DNA of 64,000 nucleotides, from contig NC_065538.1 of assembly GCF_932294415.1 (NCBI RefSeq), positions 26,623,957 to 26,687,956 on the forward strand. Direction: 5' to 3'. The DNA is from Quercus robur. Lineage: Eukaryota; Streptophyta; Magnoliopsida; Fagales; Fagaceae. The notes below the pieces were generated by a model, which had not been told where the DNA came from, searched no databases, and saw only the letters and a program-made list of their open reading frames with translations. Both the position numbers and the translations under genes were made by a program. Positions 3,705-54,364 of the stretch are shown piece after piece (position 1 is the stretch's first letter; each line of letters opens with the position of its first letter).

Positions 3705-4292
3705 CATAGTTTTCAGAACCGGATCAGAACAGGAGGTTGGACCGTGAAAACCGGGAACTGAGATGAAAATTGGTTTTTTAAGCATAAAGAACCGGATTTT
3801 TTGTTAATTCCATGAATCGCTAAAACCGGGGTTGGACTGCACGAATCGGTGAGAACTGTGCGGTCCAACCCCTTAGCAATTAAAAAAAAAAAAAAAAAAC
3901 TTAACACAATTTTATTCTACTTAATTAAATTATCCATCTCTTACAAGGAATAAAAAAAAAATTATAATTAAAATCCTTCAAAGATATTCAACTTTACTTC
4001 AAAAATTAATCATAAATTTTAATGTTTTCATGATTATTATTTTATTTTATTAACTTTCTTATTTAATTATTAAATATATGCTTGAAAATCATTAAATTTC
4101 CCTCACATATATAGATATATTGTCAATTTTGCTAGTTTTATAAATTTAATATCTATATTTAGGCTTTAATTAATTATTAAATTAATTATGACGTTATCAC
4201 GGTTCAACCCCGGTTTGACCTCAGTTCGACCTCAAAAACCTTGAACCTCTCTCTTTTACAGTTCAATGAATGGTCCGGGTTTGAAAACCTTG
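3705..4292. mobile_element. hAT-type MITE, copy A (588 bp)
   Basis: The element starts CATAGTTTTCAGAACCGGAT and the reverse complement of its end reads CAAGGTTTTCAAACCCGGAC, so it has imperfect terminal inverted repeats of about 20 bp. Flanking CTAAACAG copies give an 8-bp duplication, the hAT hallmark. It has no coding capacity and its core is very AT-rich. The same element recurs inverted at 53782-54364. It sits inside the LINE, so it is younger than the LINE. Confidence 0.85.
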
Positions 4293-4300
4293 CTAAACAG
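4293..4300. repeat. 8-bp target duplication, right copy, hAT MITE A
   Basis: CTAAACAG, matching 3697-3704. Confidence 0.85.
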
Positions 4301-10140: not shown

Positions 10141-10481
10141 TTTTACATGCCAAAAAAAGGGTCATTTGATAATTCCTTATTTATCTCACCAACTTTATCA
10201 AAATATGTTATCATGCCCAATAAGTTAGTCAATACTTTGGGGTTCATTTTTTAAGGAATTCTTTTTTGTAATTATCTGATATGTATGAGATGAAAAATTA
10301 TACAAACCTTGAAATTAAAGAGGTATTTCATAAGAGTTCTTGACATTTACATTAAACACAAAAAATAAAAACTAGCTAAAGAGCAACTAATTTAGATCAA
10401 GTCTTAATATATAAATAGAAAACTAATGTGTTATTAAATTATTCAAAGCCACTGAATTCATTGAGTGATCAAGCAGGAAAT

Positions 10482-11456
10482 ATGAGCAGGCCAGGAGATT
10501 GGAACTGCAGGTCATGCCAGCACCTCAACTTCCAGAGGCGCGACTCGTGCCAACGTTGCGGGGATCCCAAGTCAAGTGATAGAGGTGGTGACTTTGGGGG
10601 CTTTGGTGGGAGAGGAGGGTCCTCGTATGGGTTCAGTACTGGTTCTGATGTTAGGCCTGGTGATTGGTACTGCGCTGCTAGCGCCTGTGGAGCACACAAC
10701 TTTGCTAGCCGCTCAAGCTGCTTCAAGTGTGGAGCATTCAAGGATGACTCATCTTCCGGTGGCTATGACTCTGATTTCTCTCGCTCACGAGGCTTTGGTA
10801 TTGGGAGTGGCGGCGGAGGCGGCGGCGGTGGCAGTGGTGCTAGACCTGGATGGAAATCTGGTGACTGGATTTGCAGCAGGTGATTTTGAATACTTTGTAC
10901 ATATAACGTCCATATTTTCATATATGATATACATATTTTTATTGATTTTCACATTTAAAAATGTTGAGAATCAATACTCTTGTTTGTTCTTTACCTTAAA
11001 AAATAAATAATAATAATAAACTATATATAAATAATAATAAAAGTTTTGAAAGATAAAAGAAAAAGATGATAATAAACAAATTCTTAGTGAAACTATTGAA
11101 GTAGCACGTTAATTTTCCATGTCAAAATGGCTGGCTATAAATGTACAACTTTGTTTTTGGTTAGGCCGCCCTTCTTTGGCGGTATGTGAATAATATTAAG
11201 ACATTAATAGTAAAAGACATTACTTTTAGGTACTGAATATTCCAATATCTTTGACTGCTTTAATTTACATGTTAGCATGATACTTTAGTGTTTGAGTGGC
11301 CAAAAGTAATTGCATGCTTAACCATCTAGCACGACTAATTGTAATCTTTATGTGGGCGTTCTTTTTCTTTTTTTGGACAGGTCTGGATGCAACGAGCACA
11401 ATTTTGCGAGCAGAATGGAATGTTTCAGATGCAATGCCCCAAGGGACTCGTACTAG
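10482..11456 (+). CDS. RanBP2-type zinc-finger protein, three fingers, 157 aa
   Basis: Two coding exons, 10482-10879 and 11381-11456 (stop TAG at 11454-11456), joined at AG|GTGATT and TTGGACAG|G. The protein begins MSRPGDWNCRSCQHLNFQRR and has three W-x-C-x2-4-C-x10-C-x2-C fingers with Cys at 9/12/23/26, 64/69/80/83 and 131/136/147/150, each with the conserved Asn between the Cys pairs. Gly-rich linkers separate them, including eight consecutive Gly near 110-117. The layout and the NEHNFASRMECFRCNAPRD ending match small plant proteins such as Arabidopsis At5g25490 (about 170 aa). Fingers of this type bind single-stranded RNA or ubiquitin/Ran in other proteins; an RNA-binding role is likely but unproven here. 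The ATG at 10482 is preferred over the in-frame codon at 10428 because family members start MSRPGDW. The C-terminus (RDSY) is a few residues shorter than in Arabidopsis. Finger 3 is split by the intron. Confidence 0.9.
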
Positions 11457-16656: not shown

Positions 16657-18273
16657 AGAATAACTCTAAATTTTTATTAATCTAAATCATCAATTGTCCA
16701 AAAACTTTTACAAACATGAGGCTTATTTAAAATACCGTAAAACTTGATAGATAAATATATATATATATATATATATATTCAAAAATAAATCCTAATTAAT
16801 ACCTAATTATAATGTGAACTTAATTTGACATAAAAAGCATTAAAAGCCCCTAAAAAAAAGAAAATAATAACCCTAAACCTTAAAATAATGAAAATTACAT
16901 AAAAATAAATTAAATTGTACATTATGCCTTACATCATATATATAATCTTGTGCATGCGTGTGTGTACATAATAATAACCCCTAAATAAGATTTTGGTATT
17001 GATCGGTATTGAAACGTATCGTTCTCTTGGTCAAACTAAAACAATCTATAGTACAAAATTGACCTCCTTGAGTACATGGGGTTGAGAGGCAATTTCATGG
17101 TGAGTGTGGAGGCTTATGATTGGGATTGTTGGAGATACGGCTCTGGCTGTAAGCACTTAGGCCTACGCCTAAGACCTTACTTATCTAAAAAATTTATAAA
17201 GGGTCCCAAAGCCCCCCATTACATAAAAACAAAGGCCTCCAAAATATCATTTAAAAGCTTACAAGCATATCTAGAAAGCATTTCACCTTGGATTCCCTTC
17301 ATTGACCTCATGTATATATTTAGAAAGTATGCCTGATCTGGACTCAAAAGCAACTAGATATTCACAACTGTCTCCCCCAGCACTCCATGCCATATATGCT
17401 TTAAGCAAGATTCTTTTCTTCCTTTTAGACAAGCTTTATGTTCAAAATTACTTGGTGCTAGTCAAGCAGTGTCCCATTCTAGCGAGGAAGCCAATTACAC
17501 GGCATGTCAATCGGGGCCCTGGATGTTCTCATAGTTGCGTGCAGTAAGGCAATAGTCCTCTTTTTAGAATATTATCATATGAAAAGCATAACCAACAAAT
17601 ATAAAAAATCATCGAAGGACTATGAATTATATAATCACCAAGACAGACACTTCTTTTCATTAAAAGGACATATTTTAGTATGGCTGATTTTCAAGACAAA
17701 ACTAGGCATATATATTTTAATGTTTGATTATTTAGATATTTTGAAATAGGGATTGAGTTCAAATTATATACTTGATTTAAATTTTGACAATATTACATCA
17801 CTTGATATTATAGATGTGCATTTTGAAAAATATATCATCAGATCACATTTTTTTCTTGCAAAATTTCAAGATGATAAAAAGATTATAAAATGATAATTTT
17901 TTTTTTAAAATTATGCACTAGACACGAGTTTATAAATAGAAAAACAAATAATATTTGATTGGTACAAAATTTGACATGAGCATATTAAGAAAAATGAGAT
18001 ATTATGATATGACGTGGGATTTTAATACAATAAAAAAAAAAAATTTTGGGGGGGGGGGGGGGTGTTTGTGTTTCAATTTGAGTTTAAGGTCTTAATTAGC
18101 AACAATGATAATGGTGGTTGTGCACTTGTGCCTTCAATATTTCACAAAATTGTTCAACCTATCCTATCCCACTTTTCCACTGACTAGAGAGCAGAGTACA
18201 TACAGATTTTCTTATGTGTCAAAAACTCAGTTTTATTTTATTTTTTATTTTTATAATTCATTAATTGGGGGAT
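16442..18273. other. Non-coding region, no supported gene
   Basis: It contains poly-A (16619-16653), (AT)n (16757-16780) and a 17-G run (18046-18062). The + frames at 17076-17749 have no recognisable domain, overlap one another and lie in sequence without splice or promoter support. Confidence 0.45.
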
Positions 18274-18731
18274 GTAAAGTTTAAAACCCCTAGAAAACAT
18301 AGTGTTTAACCTAATTTATTAGCCAAGTAGTTGCTTAGGTTAATTATTCAGATCTAAGTTAAACATTCATCACAAAAATCATGCACAACGGAAATATAAA
18401 TAACACAAGATGTGATGACCCAAGAAAACTAATGAAACAAACTAATTTCAAGGTAAAAAAACATGGAAGAAACTATCCCTACAGAACAATCCATTATATA
18501 AAATTGAGATTTGTAGTAAAGTATACCAATTTGCAGTAAATCTAACATAGTTACCAAACTGAGCTCTAAACCCCTCAGACTTCTTTGATGTGGACTTTCT
18601 CGAACATGAACCTCCAGTTCATGTGTTGATCTTCAGTATGCTTGATAGTTGAAGCTTGTTGCAACTTTTACTCCACCAGTACTAGCAATATGCGTGTGAT
18701 CTCCAATAGGTGCTTGAAAGAGTTAGAAGGT

Positions 18732-18739
18732 ACAATAAC
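18732..18739. repeat. 8-bp target duplication of hAT transposon, left
   Basis: ACAATAAC, repeated exactly at 22655-22662. Confidence 0.95.
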
Positions 18740-18998
18740 CAGTGGCGGAGCTAGGGATTTATATTTGGGGGGGCCATGTATAATTTTTTTTTTTTTTTTT
18801 TTTTTTGTGTGTATGAAATGTAAAATAGTAATATATAATATTTCATAATTGAGTATGTATAAACCAAAGTATATTTAATTAAAATTAAACAATCATGAGA
18901 CAAAATTAAAAAAATGATTTAATATCTTTAATCAACTATAAAATGGGCAAAGTCTTAAAACATACAATAACATAAAAGCTAAACATCTTTGTTCAAAA

Positions 18999-21497
18999 CT
19001 ATAACCTACGCTCTTTAAGAGATCTAAAGTCATCAAATATTGAGTCAGTAGTGAAGTTCTCAGCAATTTCCTTTTCAATGTAGACAACTAAGTTATCTGA
19101 GAGAAACTCGTCCTCCATTTTGTTGCGCAGTCTTGTTTTAACAATTTTCATAACTGAAAAGGCTCGCTCACCAGTTGCTGTGGACACTGGAAGAGTCAAA
19201 ACAAGGCGAATCAATCGATCAATAAGAGGATATACTTGTGACTTTTCTATCTCTACTAACCTTCGACATAATTCTGCCATAGATGACAAATTTTGAAACT
19301 TCAAATGATTTTGCACATCATGCTCAAATAGCTTCAATTGAATTTTCAAACTAGTCCTATCACGCTCAGAAAAATCAAGAGGATAATATTTCTCAACAAG
19401 ACAACATATATCATCCACATTAAAGGATTTGTAAGCATCCTTTGGATCCAAAGCAGAGCAAAGTGTCAAGAGTTCTATTGGTTGTTCACCAAACCTATTG
19501 TCAAGCTCTTGTAGTTGAACATCTATTGTAGCATTAAATATATCAAAATGATAATGATGCTCCACTGTAACATGATCCCTTTTCTTACGACTTCTACCTT
19601 CAACATATTGAGCACTTAGATTTGGAATATCAATTTCAAATATTTTGGAGAATCCTATGACATTCTCAAGAAAATTATCCCAACCATCTACTTTTAAATT
19701 TTGGATGAGTGCCTTTGTTGTTGAAACTAAATTTTGGGCATTTGAGATGTCTTGAGATTTCTGCTTTAAAGCTTGACAAAGAACATCAGTAATACCCATG
19801 ATTTCCTTCATTAGATGTAAACTAAATATAAACTCAAATGAATTAATCATTTTATGAGCTACATTTGCATCTCCACGTTGCAAGTAGGTGGACCCGTCTT
19901 CCTTTATATTTTCAAGCACCAAACAAGTTGGACCAAACATCCTTATTAGGCTACAAATAGAATTAAAATGAGACCCCCAACGAGAATCTCCAGCCTGTTT
20001 TAGAGTTCCAATTTGGTTTGCTCCTGTTCCTGTTTCAAGTTCATCAATAGCTAACATTCTAGCAATTTCTGCAGCTTGAGTAGCTCTTAGTTCATCATTA
20101 CATTTACAAGAAGAACCAACTGTAGTGATAATGAAATTTAAATTCAAGAAGAATTCATGGATAGGGATTACCTCTCTTGATGCAGCAACTAATGCTAATT
20201 GTAATCGATGAGCAAAGTAATGCACATAGTATGCATAAGGACAATCATTAAGAACTAAGGCTTGCAATCCTTTCCATTCACCACACATGTTGCTAGCACC
20301 GTCATATCCTTGTCCACAAATATTTTGAATGTCAAGACAATGACAAGAAAGAATAGCATATATTTCGTTCTTCAGGGTCAATGCAACAGTTTCTTTAACA
20401 TGAGAAAGATCAAAGAAGTGTTCTTGTATAAAGCCATCATTGTCAACAAATCTCAAAACAAGAGCCAGTTGCTCTCTCTTTGACTCATCACGTGACTCAT
20501 CAACAATAATACAAAATTTGGAATCCCCAATGTCTTCAAGAATCTTACTCCGCACTTTACTTGCAATAACATGCAGAATCTCCTTCTGAATTGTAGGTGA
20601 AGTGTACTTAGTAGATTTAGGAGCATTTTCCAAAACAACTTGTGCAACCTTATCATTATAAGATGCCAAAATTCTAATCATCTCAAGGAAATTTCCTCGG
20701 TTTTTTGATTGAAGGGTTTCATCATGACCTCTAAAAGGACACCCTTGAAAGGTGAGCCACCGAACAGTATCAATAGAAGTTTTCACCTGCAGTTGATTAT
20801 TTAGAATTTGTTCAGAACTTTGCACATTCATCACTTTATCTATATGCACTAATTCATTCAATAGATCATCACAATATTTCACAGCATTGTTGTGGGGTGA
20901 GCAAGGATCTTCTCCAACATGATTCAAAAAGGCACAATTCTTTCCATTATTGACTTTTTTCCAATTTCTAAATCCTGTGAAAGTAAATGCATCACAGCCA
21001 GGGCATCTACTTCTTTCCATGGTAAAGAGATAACATGGCAGACAATATGCAGCATCTTTAGTAGGAGAATACTCCAGCCAAGAAGAAAATTGAGTGAACC
21101 AAGAAGCTTGAAAGCAACGAGGATGCTTTTCTCTAGAAAATGGATAGTTTGAAAGACGAATTTGATATGGTTTAGCTTTTAAATAAGCACGTCTAACTTC
21201 ATCACGTATATTGGCTAGATAGTTATACATTTCAATGCACTCTCCTAGATCTCGTTTTAAAATTCTAACATCAACTTCATTGGAACTAAATGGTGAAAAT
21301 TTTAAATGAATTTCTTCAAGTTCCACTTCCACCACTGACGGTCTAGAAGGATGTTTTTTGGGATCAATTCTTGGAGATTTGGAAGGACGCTCATTGGAAG
21401 TTAACGCTTCAACATTAAAACCTAAAAGTGTACTATTTTCTGAATTACTGTCTTCAATTTTTTTGAAGAATGAGTCAATAGTCCTAAACTTGCCCAT
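18999..21497 (-). CDS. hAT transposase (ZMYM1-like/TTF-type), 832 aa
   Basis: The enzyme cuts and rejoins transposon ends in the nucleus. A Lys/Arg/Ser-rich N-terminus is followed by a TTF-type zinc-finger region (about 118-200; Cys in YCLPCYLF 152/155 and RCPGC 165/168). A DUF4371-like block (about 200-460) has catalytic-type Asp in FCIIVDES (D333) and GQGYDGASNM (D399). A conserved RW (R506-W507, GDSRWGSHF) precedes the hAT C-terminal dimerisation block with ATGERAFSVMKIVKTRLRNK (774-793), where the family carries its conserved Glu. The length is normal for plant proteins often annotated as zinc finger MYM-type protein 1-like. The start MGKFRTIDSFF is the usual family start and lies right after a probable intron acceptor. 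I see no stop or frameshift. Host domestication is unlikely because terminal repeats and target duplication are present. Confidence 0.92.
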   Translation of the reverse strand: MGKFRTIDSFFKKIEDSNSENSTLLGFNVEALTSNERPSKSPRIDPKKHPSRPSVVEVELEEIHLKFSPFSSNEVDVRILKRDLGECIEMYNYLANIRDEVRRAYLKAKPYQIRLSNYPFSREKHPRCFQASWFTQFSSWLEYSPTKDAAYCLPCYLFTMERSRCPGCDAFTFTGFRNWKKVNNGKNCAFLNHVGEDPCSPHNNAVKYCDDLLNELVHIDKVMNVQSSEQILNNQLQVKTSIDTVRWLTFQGCPFRGHDETLQSKNRGNFLEMIRILASYNDKVAQVVLENAPKSTKYTSPTIQKEILHVIASKVRSKILEDIGDSKFCIIVDESRDESKREQLALVLRFVDNDGFIQEHFFDLSHVKETVALTLKNEIYAILSCHCLDIQNICGQGYDGASNMCGEWKGLQALVLNDCPYAYYVHYFAHRLQLALVAASREVIPIHEFFLNLNFIITTVGSSCKCNDELRATQAAEIARMLAIDELETGTGANQIGTLKQAGDSRWGSHFNSICSLIRMFGPTCLVLENIKEDGSTYLQRGDANVAHKMINSFEFIFSLHLMKEIMGITDVLCQALKQKSQDISNAQNLVSTTKALIQNLKVDGWDNFLENVIGFSKIFEIDIPNLSAQYVEGRSRKKRDHVTVEHHYHFDIFNATIDVQLQELDNRFGEQPIELLTLCSALDPKDAYKSFNVDDICCLVEKYYPLDFSERDRTSLKIQLKLFEHDVQNHLKFQNLSSMAELCRRLVEIEKSQVYPLIDRLIRLVLTLPVSTATGERAFSVMKIVKTRLRNKMEDEFLSDNLVVYIEKEIAENFTTDSIFDDFRSLKERRL

Positions 21498-21557
21498 GAC
21501 CTAAATTATTACTTATTAAATAAAAGACAAACAATCATTTAAATGTCAATACATAAA

Positions 21558-21579
<22 letters not shown>

Positions 21580-21588
<9 letters not shown>

Positions 21589-22340
21589 GAATAAACAACA
21601 ACTAAATACATGAATATATATTGTCTATAATATATTGATTATTATAATAATAAATAATATATTATAAGAAATTTAAAAAAGAAAGCAATGAAAAAAAAAA
21701 AAAAACAAATACCTGGAGCACACGGTGACACAGCACAAGCATAAGCTGTCAAGCACAAGCACAAGCACAGAAGCTTCACAAAATTGAGTCACAAATTGAG
21801 GGGCCCACAGCAATAGCTTACTGACAATTGTAATGAGAAAGGGACAAATTTAGTCACTTTTTATGGTCTAAATTCAACACATATCACGTTTACCCAAGAA
21901 AAATTGAACATAGTACATATATTTAACCATTGCAATTTTGGAAAGTGCAAAACAAAGAGACAAAATCTTTACCTTTAAACAAAGAGACAAAAATTTTACT
22001 TTTAAACAAAGGGATGAAAAGCAAAGAACTAAAATCTGAAAAGATTAAAAAAAGAAAGAAGAAGAGGGCGAAGGTAGACGGCAGTGCAATGGCTGTGGCG
22101 AGAAGGACTGAAGGAGGTTGAACTGCTGAAGGCAAAGAGAAAGAACTGAAAGAAGAAAAAGAAGAATGCAAAGCCCAGGTCCTCAACGGAGACAGAGAGA
22201 GTGAGAGAGAGAGAGAGAGAGTCACCTGTTGAAAGATTTTTTCTGTTCTGCAACTGCAAGACTGCTGCAATTGTGTGGCGGCGTGTGGGAGAGACAAAGT
22301 TTCAGACTTTTCAATTTTTTTTGCCGTGTACAAGTAAGCC
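21580..22340 (-). promoter_or_regulatory. Leader/promoter side of the hAT transposase
   Basis: Between the transposase start and the right end of the element there is no domain-bearing frame. It holds a (TA)n run, poly-A, a probable leader intron and a GA-rich segment (22020-22230) with a (GA)n microsatellite at 22196-22222. Small frames here are translations of the purine-rich tract. Confidence 0.4.
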
Positions 22341-22654
22341 GTATGAAAATTAGAATTTTTTTTTCTCTTTTATTTGTTGAGATAATTGTTTTTTTGGCCT
22401 AATTTGTTGAGGTAATTGTTAAAATACCTGTATTCGTTTTAAAGATGCTAAATGTGTAATTATTGTAATTTGTTTACATGTATTTGTGGATTATATTTTA
22501 TTGAAATGAAAATTGTATTTATTTTTAGACTTTATATTGGTATATTATCAAGGATGGGGGGGCCAAAATGACAAAATTATTTAAGATATTTAAAAAAAAA
22601 AAAAAAATTGGGGGGGCCAAGGCCCCCCTCAGTCCTCACGTGGCTCCGCCACTG

Positions 22655-22662
22655 ACAATAAC
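22655..22662. repeat. 8-bp target duplication of hAT transposon, right
   Basis: ACAATAAC, matching 18732-18739. Confidence 0.95.
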
Positions 22663-22987
22663 CTCACAGATTTCACAAGAGTAACTCTTCAAGACTTGAA
22701 AAAAGTGTATTAGGGTTTCCCTTATATACCAAGTATTATTGGACTCAAACCCTAAACGTTTCGTAGGCTATTGGGCCTTATTTAAAATTTTGCAGATTCA
22801 TAGCTTCGATCGAGATTAATCAAATCTCTCTCTTGATTGGTCGAGCTTGACAGTTTTCCAATTCTTCTTTCTACAACTTGTATGTTCTTGAATCTTGACT
22901 TCTATCAACTTGATCTATATCTAAAACACTTCATAGACTATATAATCTATTCCTAGACAATTTTTTGTTCTCGGTTTGCCAACATAC

Positions 22988-23513
22988 AAAATATTTAGAT
23001 ATTTTGATCAAGGAGAAAAGAATTTTACTATTCTTAAAAACTCAAAGTTTGGCAGCATCTTTCTTTGACTATTCTTAAAGTTTAATTATGACACGCCCAG
23101 TCAAATATTGGTGTTGGAAAGGAAAAAAAGTTGAATATTTTAAAATTCATTCTAAATTCTCCATAACTTAGCGTGTGAATCACTGGACCTTAAGTGTATC
23201 CAATGGCTTGTTTGAATATTGTTTATTACTGAAAATTAAAAAAACTATACAAAATATTTAGATATTTTGATCAAGGAGAAAATAATTTTACTATTCTTAA
23301 AAACTCAAAGTTTGGCAGCATCTTTTTTTGACTATTCTTAAAGTTTAATTATGACACACCCAATCAAATATTGGTGTTGGAAAGGAAAAAGAGTTGAATA
23401 TTTTAAAATTCATTCTAAATTCTCCATAACTTAGCGTGTGAATCACTAGACCCTAAGTGTATCTAATGGTCTGTTTAGATACCGTTTATTACTGAAAACT
23501 GAAAAAACTGTAG
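22988..23513. repeat. Tandem duplication, 263-bp unit
   Basis: AAAATATTTAGATATTTTGA starts both units (22988 and 23251). The units share about 95 percent of their bases by eye through GTTTGGCAGCATCTTT, TTGGTGTTGGAAAGG and TCTCCATAACTTAGCGTG. Each ends within the first about 45 bp of a Tourist-like MITE; only the second unit continues into the whole MITE. Confidence 0.9.
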
Positions 23514-24505: not shown

Positions 24506-24880
24506 TCACCTCACGTGAGATGATTGGAAAGTACGAAACACAGGAAGTCTAAAGCAAAAACCTGAGACCACGGTAGAGATAGAGACCAGGGCATCAGTGG
24601 GGTTCTCCATAGCATGGCAAACCAACGTGGAATCTGACTCGAAAATGACATCTCTAACTCCTAAGTCCCATGCGAAAATAGTGGCTTCGTCCATTGCCTT
24701 TGCTTTCGCTTCCAAAGGATCCATTGGAAGAGGGAGGCATTTGCTTAAGGCTGCGATGACAGATCCAACGTGGTCCCTAATGATCACACCGACGCCAATC
24801 ATGCTGAGTTGGGAGAAGACTGCAGCGTCTACGTTAACCTTGTACCAGGGAAACGCAGGTGGGACCCAATGGCCATCCAT
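24506..24880 (-). pseudogene. LINE 2 RNase H domain
   Basis: It contains the three acidic positions of RNase H: YKVNVDAAVF, DPLEAKAKAMDEA and FESDSTLV. The frame runs from the linker WVPPAFPWYK to SSHVR. It is the 3'-most coding part of LINE 2 before the poly(A). Confidence 0.85.
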
Positions 24881-26294
24881 GGCTTCTTTGAGCTAAATGG
24901 GCCGTAGGTGAGCAAGCTGAAAGTCATGTAATATGGAGTGAGCTCATCTTAGAATTCCTTGCGGAGTTTGTCGTGCTTCCCCCAAGCGGGTTTTGTTTTG
25001 GTTGAACCATGCACTCCATGCTATTGTGACTACCAGTTCAATAAGTGTGGTGTTCGTGTGCTGTTTGAAGAGTAGATACCAGATGAGATCCATGAAAGAC
25101 CTATGAATGATCCCAGTTCTCTCCAATGGTATGTTCGAGAAGGTCTAAAGTTCCTTAGCAACATTACACTCCCAAAATAAATGTCCAACCGTTTCTGGTG
25201 CTAGTGTGCAAGCCTCACAGGTGGGGTCGTTAATAACCTGTCAATGGTAGAGGTTGGCTTTTGTGGGAAGTATGTTGTTGCATGCTTTCCATGTAAAATT
25301 TTTTATCTTGTTGGGTATGTGCAGGTTCCAAACATGGTGCCAAAACCAGGTTTGCTCATTGCTTTAAGATGTCTCGGCTGAAGTAGAAAGCTGAGTGATG
25401 GTTCTTGCAACTTTGTATACACTATTGACAATAAAATGCCCCCTAGGAGTGAAAGCCCAAATCATGTGGTCCCTTGGCTTGTGGTGGCTTAAAGGAATGC
25501 TTAGGATGGATGTGGCATCTTTATGGAAGAAAACCTGATTGATCAGGTTGAGATTCCACTGTTGTATTTACAAGCAGTAAGGTTGGGGGTGTAAGGACAC
25601 AAAAGGTGGAAGGTCTTGGCAGCCAACGATCCGTCCACACTCCAATGGACTTACCGTCTCCTACCTGCCAGCGGTAGCCCGATTGCAATAAACTGAGCGA
25701 ACAAAATACTTCGCCATGCAAACGATGGTTTCATGCCCAACTCAGCATGTAGGAAATCTATATTTGGAAAATAACGGGCTTTAAGTACTCTATGGACCAA
25801 TGAGTTGTTTATCTATAAACACTAGCCTTATTTAGCTAAGAGAGCTAGGTTGAAAGCCTTAAGGTCATGGAAACCCGATCCTCCTTCTTCCTTTGGTGTG
25901 CACATTTTTCCCCAACTCAATCATGCCATTTTATTTTTACCTTCCTTTTGGCCCCACCAAAATCTTCGAATCATTCTAACCAATTCATCACATAAGGAAT
26001 CTAGAATTTTTAAGATGCTTATTGTGTATGTGGGAATAGCTTGTGCAACTGCTTTGATGAGAACTTCTTTACTTGCTTGGGATAACAGTTTTTCTTTCCA
26101 GCCAGAGAGTTTGTTGTCAAGCTTTCCTTTAAAGCTCTGAAGATGTGCTTCTTTGATCTGCCCACTAAGGATGGCAAGCCCAAATAAGTCTCATGCTGCC
26201 TGATCACCTCTGCTCCAAAGCAAATTTTAATCTCTTCCTGTGTGTCCCATGGGGTGTTCCTGCTAAAGAAAAGAGCTATCTTCTCCTTATTTAG

Positions 26295-27190
26295 CTATTG
26301 GCCAGAGACTTGCTCATATATAGTTAAAAGATGCTCAAGATGGCTGCATTGTTCTGGTGTTGCTTGGCAAAAAATGATGTTGTCATCAGCAAAGAATAGA
26401 TGAGATATCCTCAGTCCAAGTGGGCAAAGTGATACACCCCGAAGTTGTCCAGCAGCTACAGATTGGTTTAAAAAAGCTGAAAGTCCCTCTGCGCATAAAA
26501 GAAACATGAAGGGAGAGATAAGGTCCCCTTGTCTCAAACCCCTAGACGAGATTATGTGACCTTGGGGTTTCCCGTTAATCCTGATAGAATATGTAACAGA
26601 GGTAATACATTGATTATAAGTTTCACCCATTTATCATTGAAACCCATTTTTTGCATGATTTTCTCTAAGCAACCCCATTCAACACGATCAAAGGCCTTGC
26701 TCATATCTAATTTTAAGGCCATCTCACCAACCTTACCACTTCTTTTTTTATTAAGGTGGTGTATAGTTTCAAAGGCAATAATAATATTGTCAGTGATGAG
26801 GTGGTTAGACATTGAAACACTTTGGTTTTCACTTACAATATGGGGTAGGAAGCACTTCAGCCGATTAGCAATGACTTTAGAGGTGAGTTTAGAAATAACA
26901 TTACAAAGACTTATCAATTTGTACTGAGTTACTTTGGTGGGATTTTTGGTCTTTGGAATGAGAACAATATGTGTTTCATTAAAATTTGGAGGAATAATAC
27001 CCAAGTTCAAGAAATCTAGAACAGTTTTGGTGACACATTCACTAGTAAGAGACCAAAAGTGTTGATAAAAGAGAGGGGGCATACCATCGGGACCCGAAGA
27101 TTTTTTGGGATGTATCTTTTTGAGAGCTTTATGGACTTCTGTAGCTGTGTAAGTCCAAGTGAGAGAGGCATTCATCTCTTCCGTGACCAC
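26295..27190 (-). pseudogene. LINE 2 reverse transcriptase
   Basis: Two overlapping frames hold the RT. The first (26552-27190) has KKSSGPDGMPPLFYQHFW, HIVLIPKTKNP, LISLCNVISKLTSKVIANR and MALKLDMSKAFDRVEW. The second (26295-26630) has ISSRGLRQGDLISPFMFLLC and SHLFFADDNIIFCQ. A frameshift lies between them around 26560-26630. Motif order and spacing are those of plant L1 elements. Confidence 0.9.
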
Positions 27191-27721
27191 AGGTTGGATA
27201 GCATCAACCAGGACTAAGGTATCAGTAGGCCCATTAGAGCGAAAGATGGTCTCAAAATAATCCAGAGTGATGATCTTAGTAGTGTGATCATCCTCCTGCC
27301 ATTGCCCTGTTGCATCATAGATGCCCTGAATGGAGCTCCTATCTTTTTGGTTTGATGTTTTCTAATGGAAGAAGGAAGTGTGGTGCCACATTGTATTTTC
27401 AGCATCTAGCCATCGATTCAAAGTCGCTCGTACCTCCTTGATTTCAATATCGTTGCGGATAGGATGATGCTCGAGGACTTGAAGCTTTTGGTTTAGTTTC
27501 GTAATCTTATTCCCTATGTGACCAAATTCAAGTTTATTCCAAGCAGTCAGTCGATCACGGCAGCTAGCATGACAGTTGGTGATTATAGCACCATCCAGCT
27601 TGTAGAGACCTTTGTGCCATGCTTCTTGGATGATATCGGCACACCGTGGGTCTTGAAGCCACATGCCTTCAAAGCAAAAGAGGGGTTGGGAACGTGGTTG
27701 TCTAGGTCTGGAGTGCTGCAT

Positions 27722-28398
27722 CTAGATGGTAAGCATGGAGTGATCCAAAGATGACATTGAAACATGATGGACAGTGGCATTGGGGAAAAGCGACTTCCAG
27801 GTTGTGTTGGCCAAAGCTCCGTCTAGCCTGATATGAATACGACCTTCCACAGGGTGATTACGGTACCATGTGAATGGAAAGCCAACGTATCCAAGGTTAA
27901 TGAAATTACAATGGTGAATGGCAGTGCAAAAACGATCCATTTGGCGCGTTGGCCGTAGGCAACCACCCATTTTCTCGGACTGGCTTGTAATCTCATTGAA
28001 ATCACCAATGTAGAGCCAGGGAAGGTGATTGTTTGTTTGAGAGATTCAAGAAGAGTCCAAGTTTCCTCACACTTGCTAGTTTCGAGGTGCCTATAGAAAC
28101 CTGTCAACCTCCAACATATTCCTGTCATTTCACAAAACACATGAGTATCAATAAACCAACGTGAAAAATTTTTGACATGTACCTTTGTATCTGATAAGCC
28201 ACCACTACGACCCTTATTAGAGACCATGAGAGCCTGATTGTAGTCCCAGTTTTGTTTCTTGGTGTTCATTTGAGCCGTGGAAAGTTTTGTCTCCATTAAA
28301 AAGACACAGATGGGAGCTTCTTGTTTCCATGCTCTCTTAAGAGTGTTAATTATTCGGGGGTTCCCAAGCCCGCAACAATTCCAATTTAGTACACTCAT
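27722..28398 (-). pseudogene. LINE 2 AP-type endonuclease
   Basis: Two frames (27823-28398 and 27722-27970) together show the endonuclease signature: NWNCCGLGNPR with the first Asn, the metal-binding Glu in FLMETKLS, GDFNE (minus strand near 27995-28010), GFPFTWYRN and SSLDHSM. A frameshift divides them. In an intact element this enzyme nicks the target to start reverse transcription. Confidence 0.85.
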
Positions 28399-28663
28399 TG
28401 GACTTGGCGGTGCTGCTAGGCAACCACCGTCGATCCTAAATTGTCTAGCACAGAATTTTCCAAAGTATGTGTATCATCTTCAAGTTTCTGTTTCTTGTCA
28501 ATGGACGTTGCATGTGCATGGGACTATTCCACGGGCTTGCGTTTTGGTCTAGCAGGAGGTGAGTTATGTTTTGGGTCCATGGCTTTGTCCTTGGACTTGC
28601 TTTTTGGTTCAACAGAGAGGGGGGGGGGGGGGGGGGGTGGGTGCGTGAATTAAGTCCAATACC

Positions 28664-41373: not shown

Positions 41374-42003
41374 TACTTGCCCATGTGTCGCAGAATAGTT
41401 CAACCATCAGAACTGGTAATTCCAGCAACTCCTGAAACTTCTGATGCTAATGATGCTAGACCATCCTCTTCAAAAGGTAATTCATCTTTGAAAGTCTCAT
41501 CACTTCTATAACTTCTTGAGAAATCAAGAGATGATAACCCAGCTACAAAGTCAATAATATTTTCACAGTTTCGTAAGATGCTGATGTTACTTGCAGAGCC
41601 GCTAAAAGTTGCTAGTTTTAGAAGTTTGTCTTTAGATGGGACTACTAATGAAGAGGTAATGGTTAAAGTGATCAAAGAATTTGGAGATCCAAGACCAAAT
41701 GCACCTACAGTTTTGCTTGCAAGTCATCATGCCTCAGGTATGGGGAAAAACCTAATAGCTACTTCTAGAGTCTATTTCTTAGAGCCATGGTGGAATGCAG
41801 CTCTTGAAAATCAGGCAGTGGATTGGGTTCATCGGATTGGCCACAAGGAGGAAGTAAAGATAGTTAGGATAATTGCTAGAGATACCATAGAAGAGAGGAT
41901 ATTAAAGTTACAGAAGAAGAGGTAGGATTGCAATGGAGGTCAAGATCCAGGATATTTGATGGAGTTTGACAATGAGGATCTTGGAGTCCTACTCATGTCT
42001 TGA

Positions 42004-50817: not shown

Positions 50818-50822
50818 GCGGG

Positions 50823-50865
<43 letters not shown>

Positions 50866-50890
50866 GCGTGTTCGATCCACGCTCACCGCA
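50818..50890 (+). tRNA. tRNA-Phe (GAA)
   Basis: A 73-nt cloverleaf starting GCGGGGATAGCTCAGTTGGG, with A-box TAGCTCAGTTGG, anticodon loop CTGAAGA (GAA), B-box GTTCGATCC and discriminator A after ...CTCACCGC. No intron and no encoded CCA, as usual for plant nuclear tRNA genes. The acceptor stem has the G-A mismatch (5-68) found in plant tRNA-Phe. A T-run immediately after is the RNA polymerase III stop. Confidence 0.97.
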
Positions 50891-53773: not shown

Positions 53774-53781
53774 GCTTGGAG
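53774..53781. repeat. 8-bp target duplication, hAT MITE B, left
   Basis: GCTTGGAG, repeated exactly at 54365-54372. Confidence 0.9.
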
Positions 53782-54162
53782 CAAAGTTTTCAGACCCAGA
53801 CCGTTCATTGAACTGTAAAAGGGAGAGGTTCAAGGTTTTTGAGGTCAAACTAAGGTCAAACCGTGATGACGTCATAATTAATTTAACAATTAATTAAAGC
53901 CTAAATATAGATATTAAATTTATAAAACTAACAAAATTGACAATATATCTATATATGTGAGGGAAATTTAATGATTTTTAAGCATATATTTAATAATTAA
54001 ATAAGAAAGTTAATAAAATAAAATAATAACCATGAAAATATTAAAATTTATGATTAATTTTTGAAGTAAAGTTGAATATCTTTGAAGAATTTTAATTATA
54101 ATTTTTTTTATTCATTGTAAGAGATGGATAATTTAATTAAGTAGAATAAAATTGTGTTAAGT

Positions 54163-54193
<31 letters not shown>

Positions 54194-54364
54194 TAAGGGG
54201 TTGGATCGCACGGTTCTCACTGGTTCGGGAGGTCCAACTCCGGTTTTAGCAGTTTACGGAATTAACAAAAAATCTAATTCTTTATGCTTAAAAAACCGGT
54301 TTTCATCCCGGTTCCCGATTTTCACGGTCCAACCCCTCGGTCCGGTCCAGTTCTGAAAACTATG
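53782..54364. mobile_element. hAT-type MITE, copy B (583 bp)
   Basis: It starts CAAAGTTTTCAGACCCAGAC and ends TTCTGAAAACTATG, whose reverse complement CATAGTTTTCAGAA equals the start of copy A. The whole body is the inverted counterpart of 3705-4292, including the AT-rich core and the AACCGGTTTT-type flank. GCTTGGAG copies flank it exactly. Confidence 0.9.

Follow-up and report, generated by a model that had tools for sequence, protein, structure and literature searches.

The stretch of Quercus robur DNA analysed here, a window of 64 kb in all, raises the question of whether it harbours a complete transposon of the hAT superfamily and whether that copy could still move. An earlier note had described an apparently intact, possibly still mobile hAT element at positions 18740 to 22654, nested in a solo long terminal repeat (LTR). 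These coordinates are borne out, and the element is very probably, to judge from its sequence, a Tip-group (Tip100-like) hAT transposon of full length that arrived at its present site by transposition and has kept its reading frame. It may no longer be able to move, because the Cys of a motif written C/DxxH reads Tyr. The element and the features that frame and fill it are as follows:

18732-18739, no strand: target-site duplication, left copy, ACAATAAC in direct reading
18740-22654: whole hAT element, 3,915 bp, with the transposase on the minus strand
18740-18751, plus strand: left terminal inverted repeat, CAGTGGCGGAGC, exact match
18766-18776, plus strand: subterminal copy of TGGGGGGGCCA, at 27-37 bp counted from the left end
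18999-21497, minus strand: transposase frame of 832 aa, with an ATG start and no internal stop
21498-22642, minus strand: leader side, preceding the transposase frame and presumably holding the promoter and 5′ UTR
22555-22565, plus strand: subterminal copy of TGGGGGGGCCA, at 90-100 bp counted from the right end
22609-22619, plus strand: subterminal copy of TGGGGGGGCCA, at 36-46 bp counted from the right end
22621-22628, minus strand: word GGGGGGCC, at about the distance from the right end that the left repeat has from its own end
22643-22654, minus strand: right terminal inverted repeat, CAGTGGCGGAGC, exact match
22655-22662, no strand: target-site duplication, right copy, ACAATAAC in direct reading

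The termini, which had been called near-perfect, are identical at 12 of 12 positions (18740-18751 and 22643-22654), and base 13 is unlike at the two ends of the element (T and C). Both ends fit the consensus of plant hAT ends, (T/C)AGNGNNG (PMC6027215), one of the marks by which the superfamily is recognized. With up to two mismatches allowed, CAGTGGCGGAGC has two matches in the 64 kb, and these are the two element ends, both exact; the chance expectation is 0.39, and at least two such matches were obtained in 6 of 100 shuffles. At three mismatches the word falls to chance level in the window (8 observed vs. 7.8 expected). The flanking duplication likewise proved as exact as had been claimed, the copies of ACAATAAC at 18732-18739 and 22655-22662 agreeing at 8 of 8 positions, and a duplication of 8 bp is a further mark of the hAT superfamily.

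Between these ends, the minus strand carries the uninterrupted 832-residue transposase that had been reported, unbroken from its ATG to its stop (21497-18999). The longest stop-free stretch comprises 833 codons, as opposed to a maximum of 223 and a mean of 130.6 in 100 random first-order Markov sequences of the size of the window. Searches of Pfam recognized DUF4371 at residues 169-410 (E 1.9e-59). They also placed the hAT dimerisation domain Dimer_Tnp_hAT (PF05699), another mark of the superfamily, at residues 751-810 (E 9e-10; 38.7 bits vs. a cut-off of 21.4). The Asp blocks, the RW pair and the ATGERAFS block listed in the earlier note are all present. Its zinc finger fared less well: residues of the zinc-ligand type do occur (C152, C155, H193, and H202), which by eye would form such a finger, whereas Pfam names none around C152-H202. 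A Pfam match to Pterin_bind (E 0.22, under its cut-off) was set aside. The transposase found no match in NCBIfam and nothing in a PDB sequence search at E ≤ 1; at E ≤ 10, the latter returned three weak matches (E 1.2-1.4) to unrelated proteins.

Assignment to the Tip group draws on comparison with published elements. Tip, named after Tip100, is the third major group of hAT elements (PMC3942097). Membership is assigned here from anatomy and domains. The pairing of DUF4371 with the dimerisation domain, a mark of the Tip group, is that of BuT2 of Drosophila buzzatii (PMC3942097). The ends, the size and the length of the protein are, by description, those of a Tip100-like element (PMC12511174). 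Tip100 of Ipomoea purpurea shares with the oak element the 3.8-kb size class, the CAG-GGCGGAG ends, a single-frame transposase of ~800 aa and the 8-bp duplication; when the two are compared by description, Tip100 (3.8 kb) differs in having 11-bp ends CAGGGGCGGAG and a transposase of 808 aa, as opposed to CAGTGGCGGAGC and 832 aa here (PMC12511174). Insertions borne by Tip100 in medaka also show 8-bp duplications (PMC12511174). Tip100 is reported to be autonomous in tobacco. BuT2 resembles the oak element further in its 12-bp ends and 8-bp duplication, and differs in its animal host, its length of 2.8 kb, its five exons and its 643-aa protein (PMC3942097). The non-autonomous silkworm elements BmMITE-14 and BmMITE-16 have ends that start with CAGTGGCGGA and an 8-base target duplication pattern, but they are short (431 and 265 bp), come from an insect and are filed as Pegasus-like (PMC2997013). 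No relative was found in viral contigs, prokaryote genomes, phages, or plasmids, a result that says little since these are non-plant collections. Similarly, the pattern of the second Asp block occurs at 2 viral and 49 prokaryote loci, and among these 51 no relative scored usably (0 of 51; best E 1.5).

Every exact copy of TGGGGGGGCCA in the window, three in all, falls inside the element and no more than 100 bp from one of its ends; when one mismatch is allowed, a fourth match appears outside the element, at 25949-25959, and four such matches arose in none of 100 shuffles. The word GGGGGGCC, counted on both strands, has four copies in the window, all of them in the element and within 100 bp of an end. 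In medaka, 100 bp of each end of Tip100 are sufficient for transposition (PMC12511174). In Hermes, BED domains bind the left-end subterminal repeats, although one of that paper's headings states that the right-end subterminal repeats have no interaction with these domains (PMC10368747). The TGGGGGGGCCA repeats are putative transposase binding sites. If the element behaves as its family does, the 832-residue minus-strand transposase would recognize both the ends and the G-rich subterminal repeats, excise the element so that the flanking DNA is left with hairpins, and allow the excised element to reinsert elsewhere with an 8-bp duplication. The parts of this scheme that are seen directly are the ends with their duplication, the frame without breaks and its two Pfam domains.

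The leader contains splice-like sites at several places, none of them clearly best by splice-site score. The best-scoring donors include 21712 and 22427, with 21972 close behind, and the site just before the ATG of the frame is absent from the best eight acceptors, better ones being located further upstream. Nine ATGs precede that of the transposase in the leader. A leader intron is possible.

The site in which the element sits is less clear than the element itself, the solo LTR proposed as its host being a possibility. On the right, the flanking sequence stops sharply at 22984/22985, where two 263-bp tandem units cease to be homologous. However, scans of ~22930-23020 for the right edge and of 17500-18700 for the left gave no TG...CA pair flanked by an exact 5-bp duplication; edge 22984 has three left candidates with one mismatch each, at 16808, 17886, and 18101 (the nearest). 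A search of the window at E 1e-3 with the two flanks joined (18200-18731 and 22655-23000) returned the flanks themselves and nothing else, and no second LTR lies nearby. The nesting of the element in an LTR may be real, and the flanking sequence is possibly a truncated LTR or not an LTR.

Several other features share the window. The tandem pair mentioned above (22984-23246 and 23247-23509) is 94 percent identical, and its homology starts at the putative LTR edge. Decayed reverse-transcriptase remains occupy 24509-28473 on the minus strand, where three of five frames match RVT_1 or RVT_3: RVT_3 is found at 24509-24892 and RVT_1 is split over 26298-26630 and 26555-27361, while the frames at 27365-27721 and 27826-28473 match no Pfam family. 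An inverted pair of ~600 bp (3705-4294 and 53780-54364), 89 percent identical, has its arms ~50 kb apart, and a tRNA gene is located at 50818-50890 on the plus strand (66.1 bits in Rfam). Two plus-strand frames resemble host genes, one with a RanBP-type zinc ribbon (10419-10880) and one with a helicase C-terminal domain (41512-41922), in a domain scan that covered 10 of 31 frames.

The active site of the transposase was placed by motif, the single-sequence structure model being unusable (mean pLDDT 36). Its residues, assigned by motif and spacing, would be D333, D399, R506, W507, and E777. The spacing of 66 between D333 and D399 equals that between D301 and D367 of Ac, and the five would correspond to Hermes D180, D248, R318, W319, and E572, whose presence earns a transposase the label “active” in a survey of plant hATs (PMC6027215). 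The C/DxxH slot, placed by its distance after the second Asp block, reads Y427-F-A-H430 (YFAH) and thus departs from the motif: the His is kept and the Cys is replaced by Tyr. Plant relatives typically have VHCFAH here, and a search of the hAT literature found no paper containing the peptide HCFAH. C/DxxH is not treated here as defining for the superfamily on its own. The transposase is accordingly unbroken yet carries a suspect substitution at Y427, and an uninterrupted frame is by itself no proof of a working enzyme. Of the intact, possibly mobile hAT put forward in the earlier note, the intact part stands, the element being complete with an unbroken frame and exact ends and duplication, and the mobile part is weakened by Y427.

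The ends and the duplication, both perfect, and the open frame are in keeping with a fairly young insertion. Together with the five residues that the plant survey equates with activity, located here by motif, these features argue for an autonomous element that inserted recently, is still mobile and could act as a source for non-autonomous relatives, as does the contrast with the reverse-transcriptase remains ~2 kb away, which are broken into several frames. This reading is nonetheless rather unlikely in view of the Tyr in the C/DxxH slot and of a frame that is somewhat poor in CpG. Indeed, the observed/expected ratio of CpG is 0.35 in the frame, 0.38 in the whole element, 0.42 in the window, and 0.48-0.49 in the 10-kb flanks, and that of TG+CA is 1.29 in the frame vs. 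1.11-1.14 in the 10-kb flanks. The CpG-poor frame would fit past methylation and decaying DNA, and it is a weak sign, given the values of the window and of the whole element and with codon bias uncontrolled.

We are evenly divided as to whether this copy is structurally intact and catalytically dead or weakened, with a frame kept by youth or chance and a compromised C/DxxH. The C402A/H405A double mutant of Kat1 still nicks DNA and has lost hairpin formation and activity in vivo (PMC4763223), and C401 and H404 (Ac numbering) are highly conserved across the hATs of plants (PMC6027215), both of which point to a damaged enzyme. Yet the oak transposase retains the His, which contacts the scissile phosphate in Hermes (PMC7780238) and whose change costs Muta1 99.5 percent of its activity (PMC5225508). 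Moreover, the evidence from Kat1 concerns a double mutant, and since the motif is also written with Asp, as C/DxxH (PMC7780238), not every family strictly needs the Cys. That the Tyr represents no damage, this Tip-group lineage working with YxxH and the Cys or Asp being dispensable when the His is kept, is improbable. A domesticated transposase gene that the host has kept for another function could likewise show a long frame without breaks and a changed motif. However, the exact ends and duplication that still enclose this frame are what one would look for in a transposon copy rather than in an old host gene, and domestication is very hard to credit.

As the full-length Tip-group transposon that it very probably is, the element would add one structurally complete Tip100-like member to the catalogue and is otherwise ordinary. 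Intact relatives of Tip100 are of some practical value because Tip100 works as a transgenesis tool in medaka (PMC12511174). The Cys-to-Tyr change in C/DxxH constitutes a natural test of the need for that Cys.
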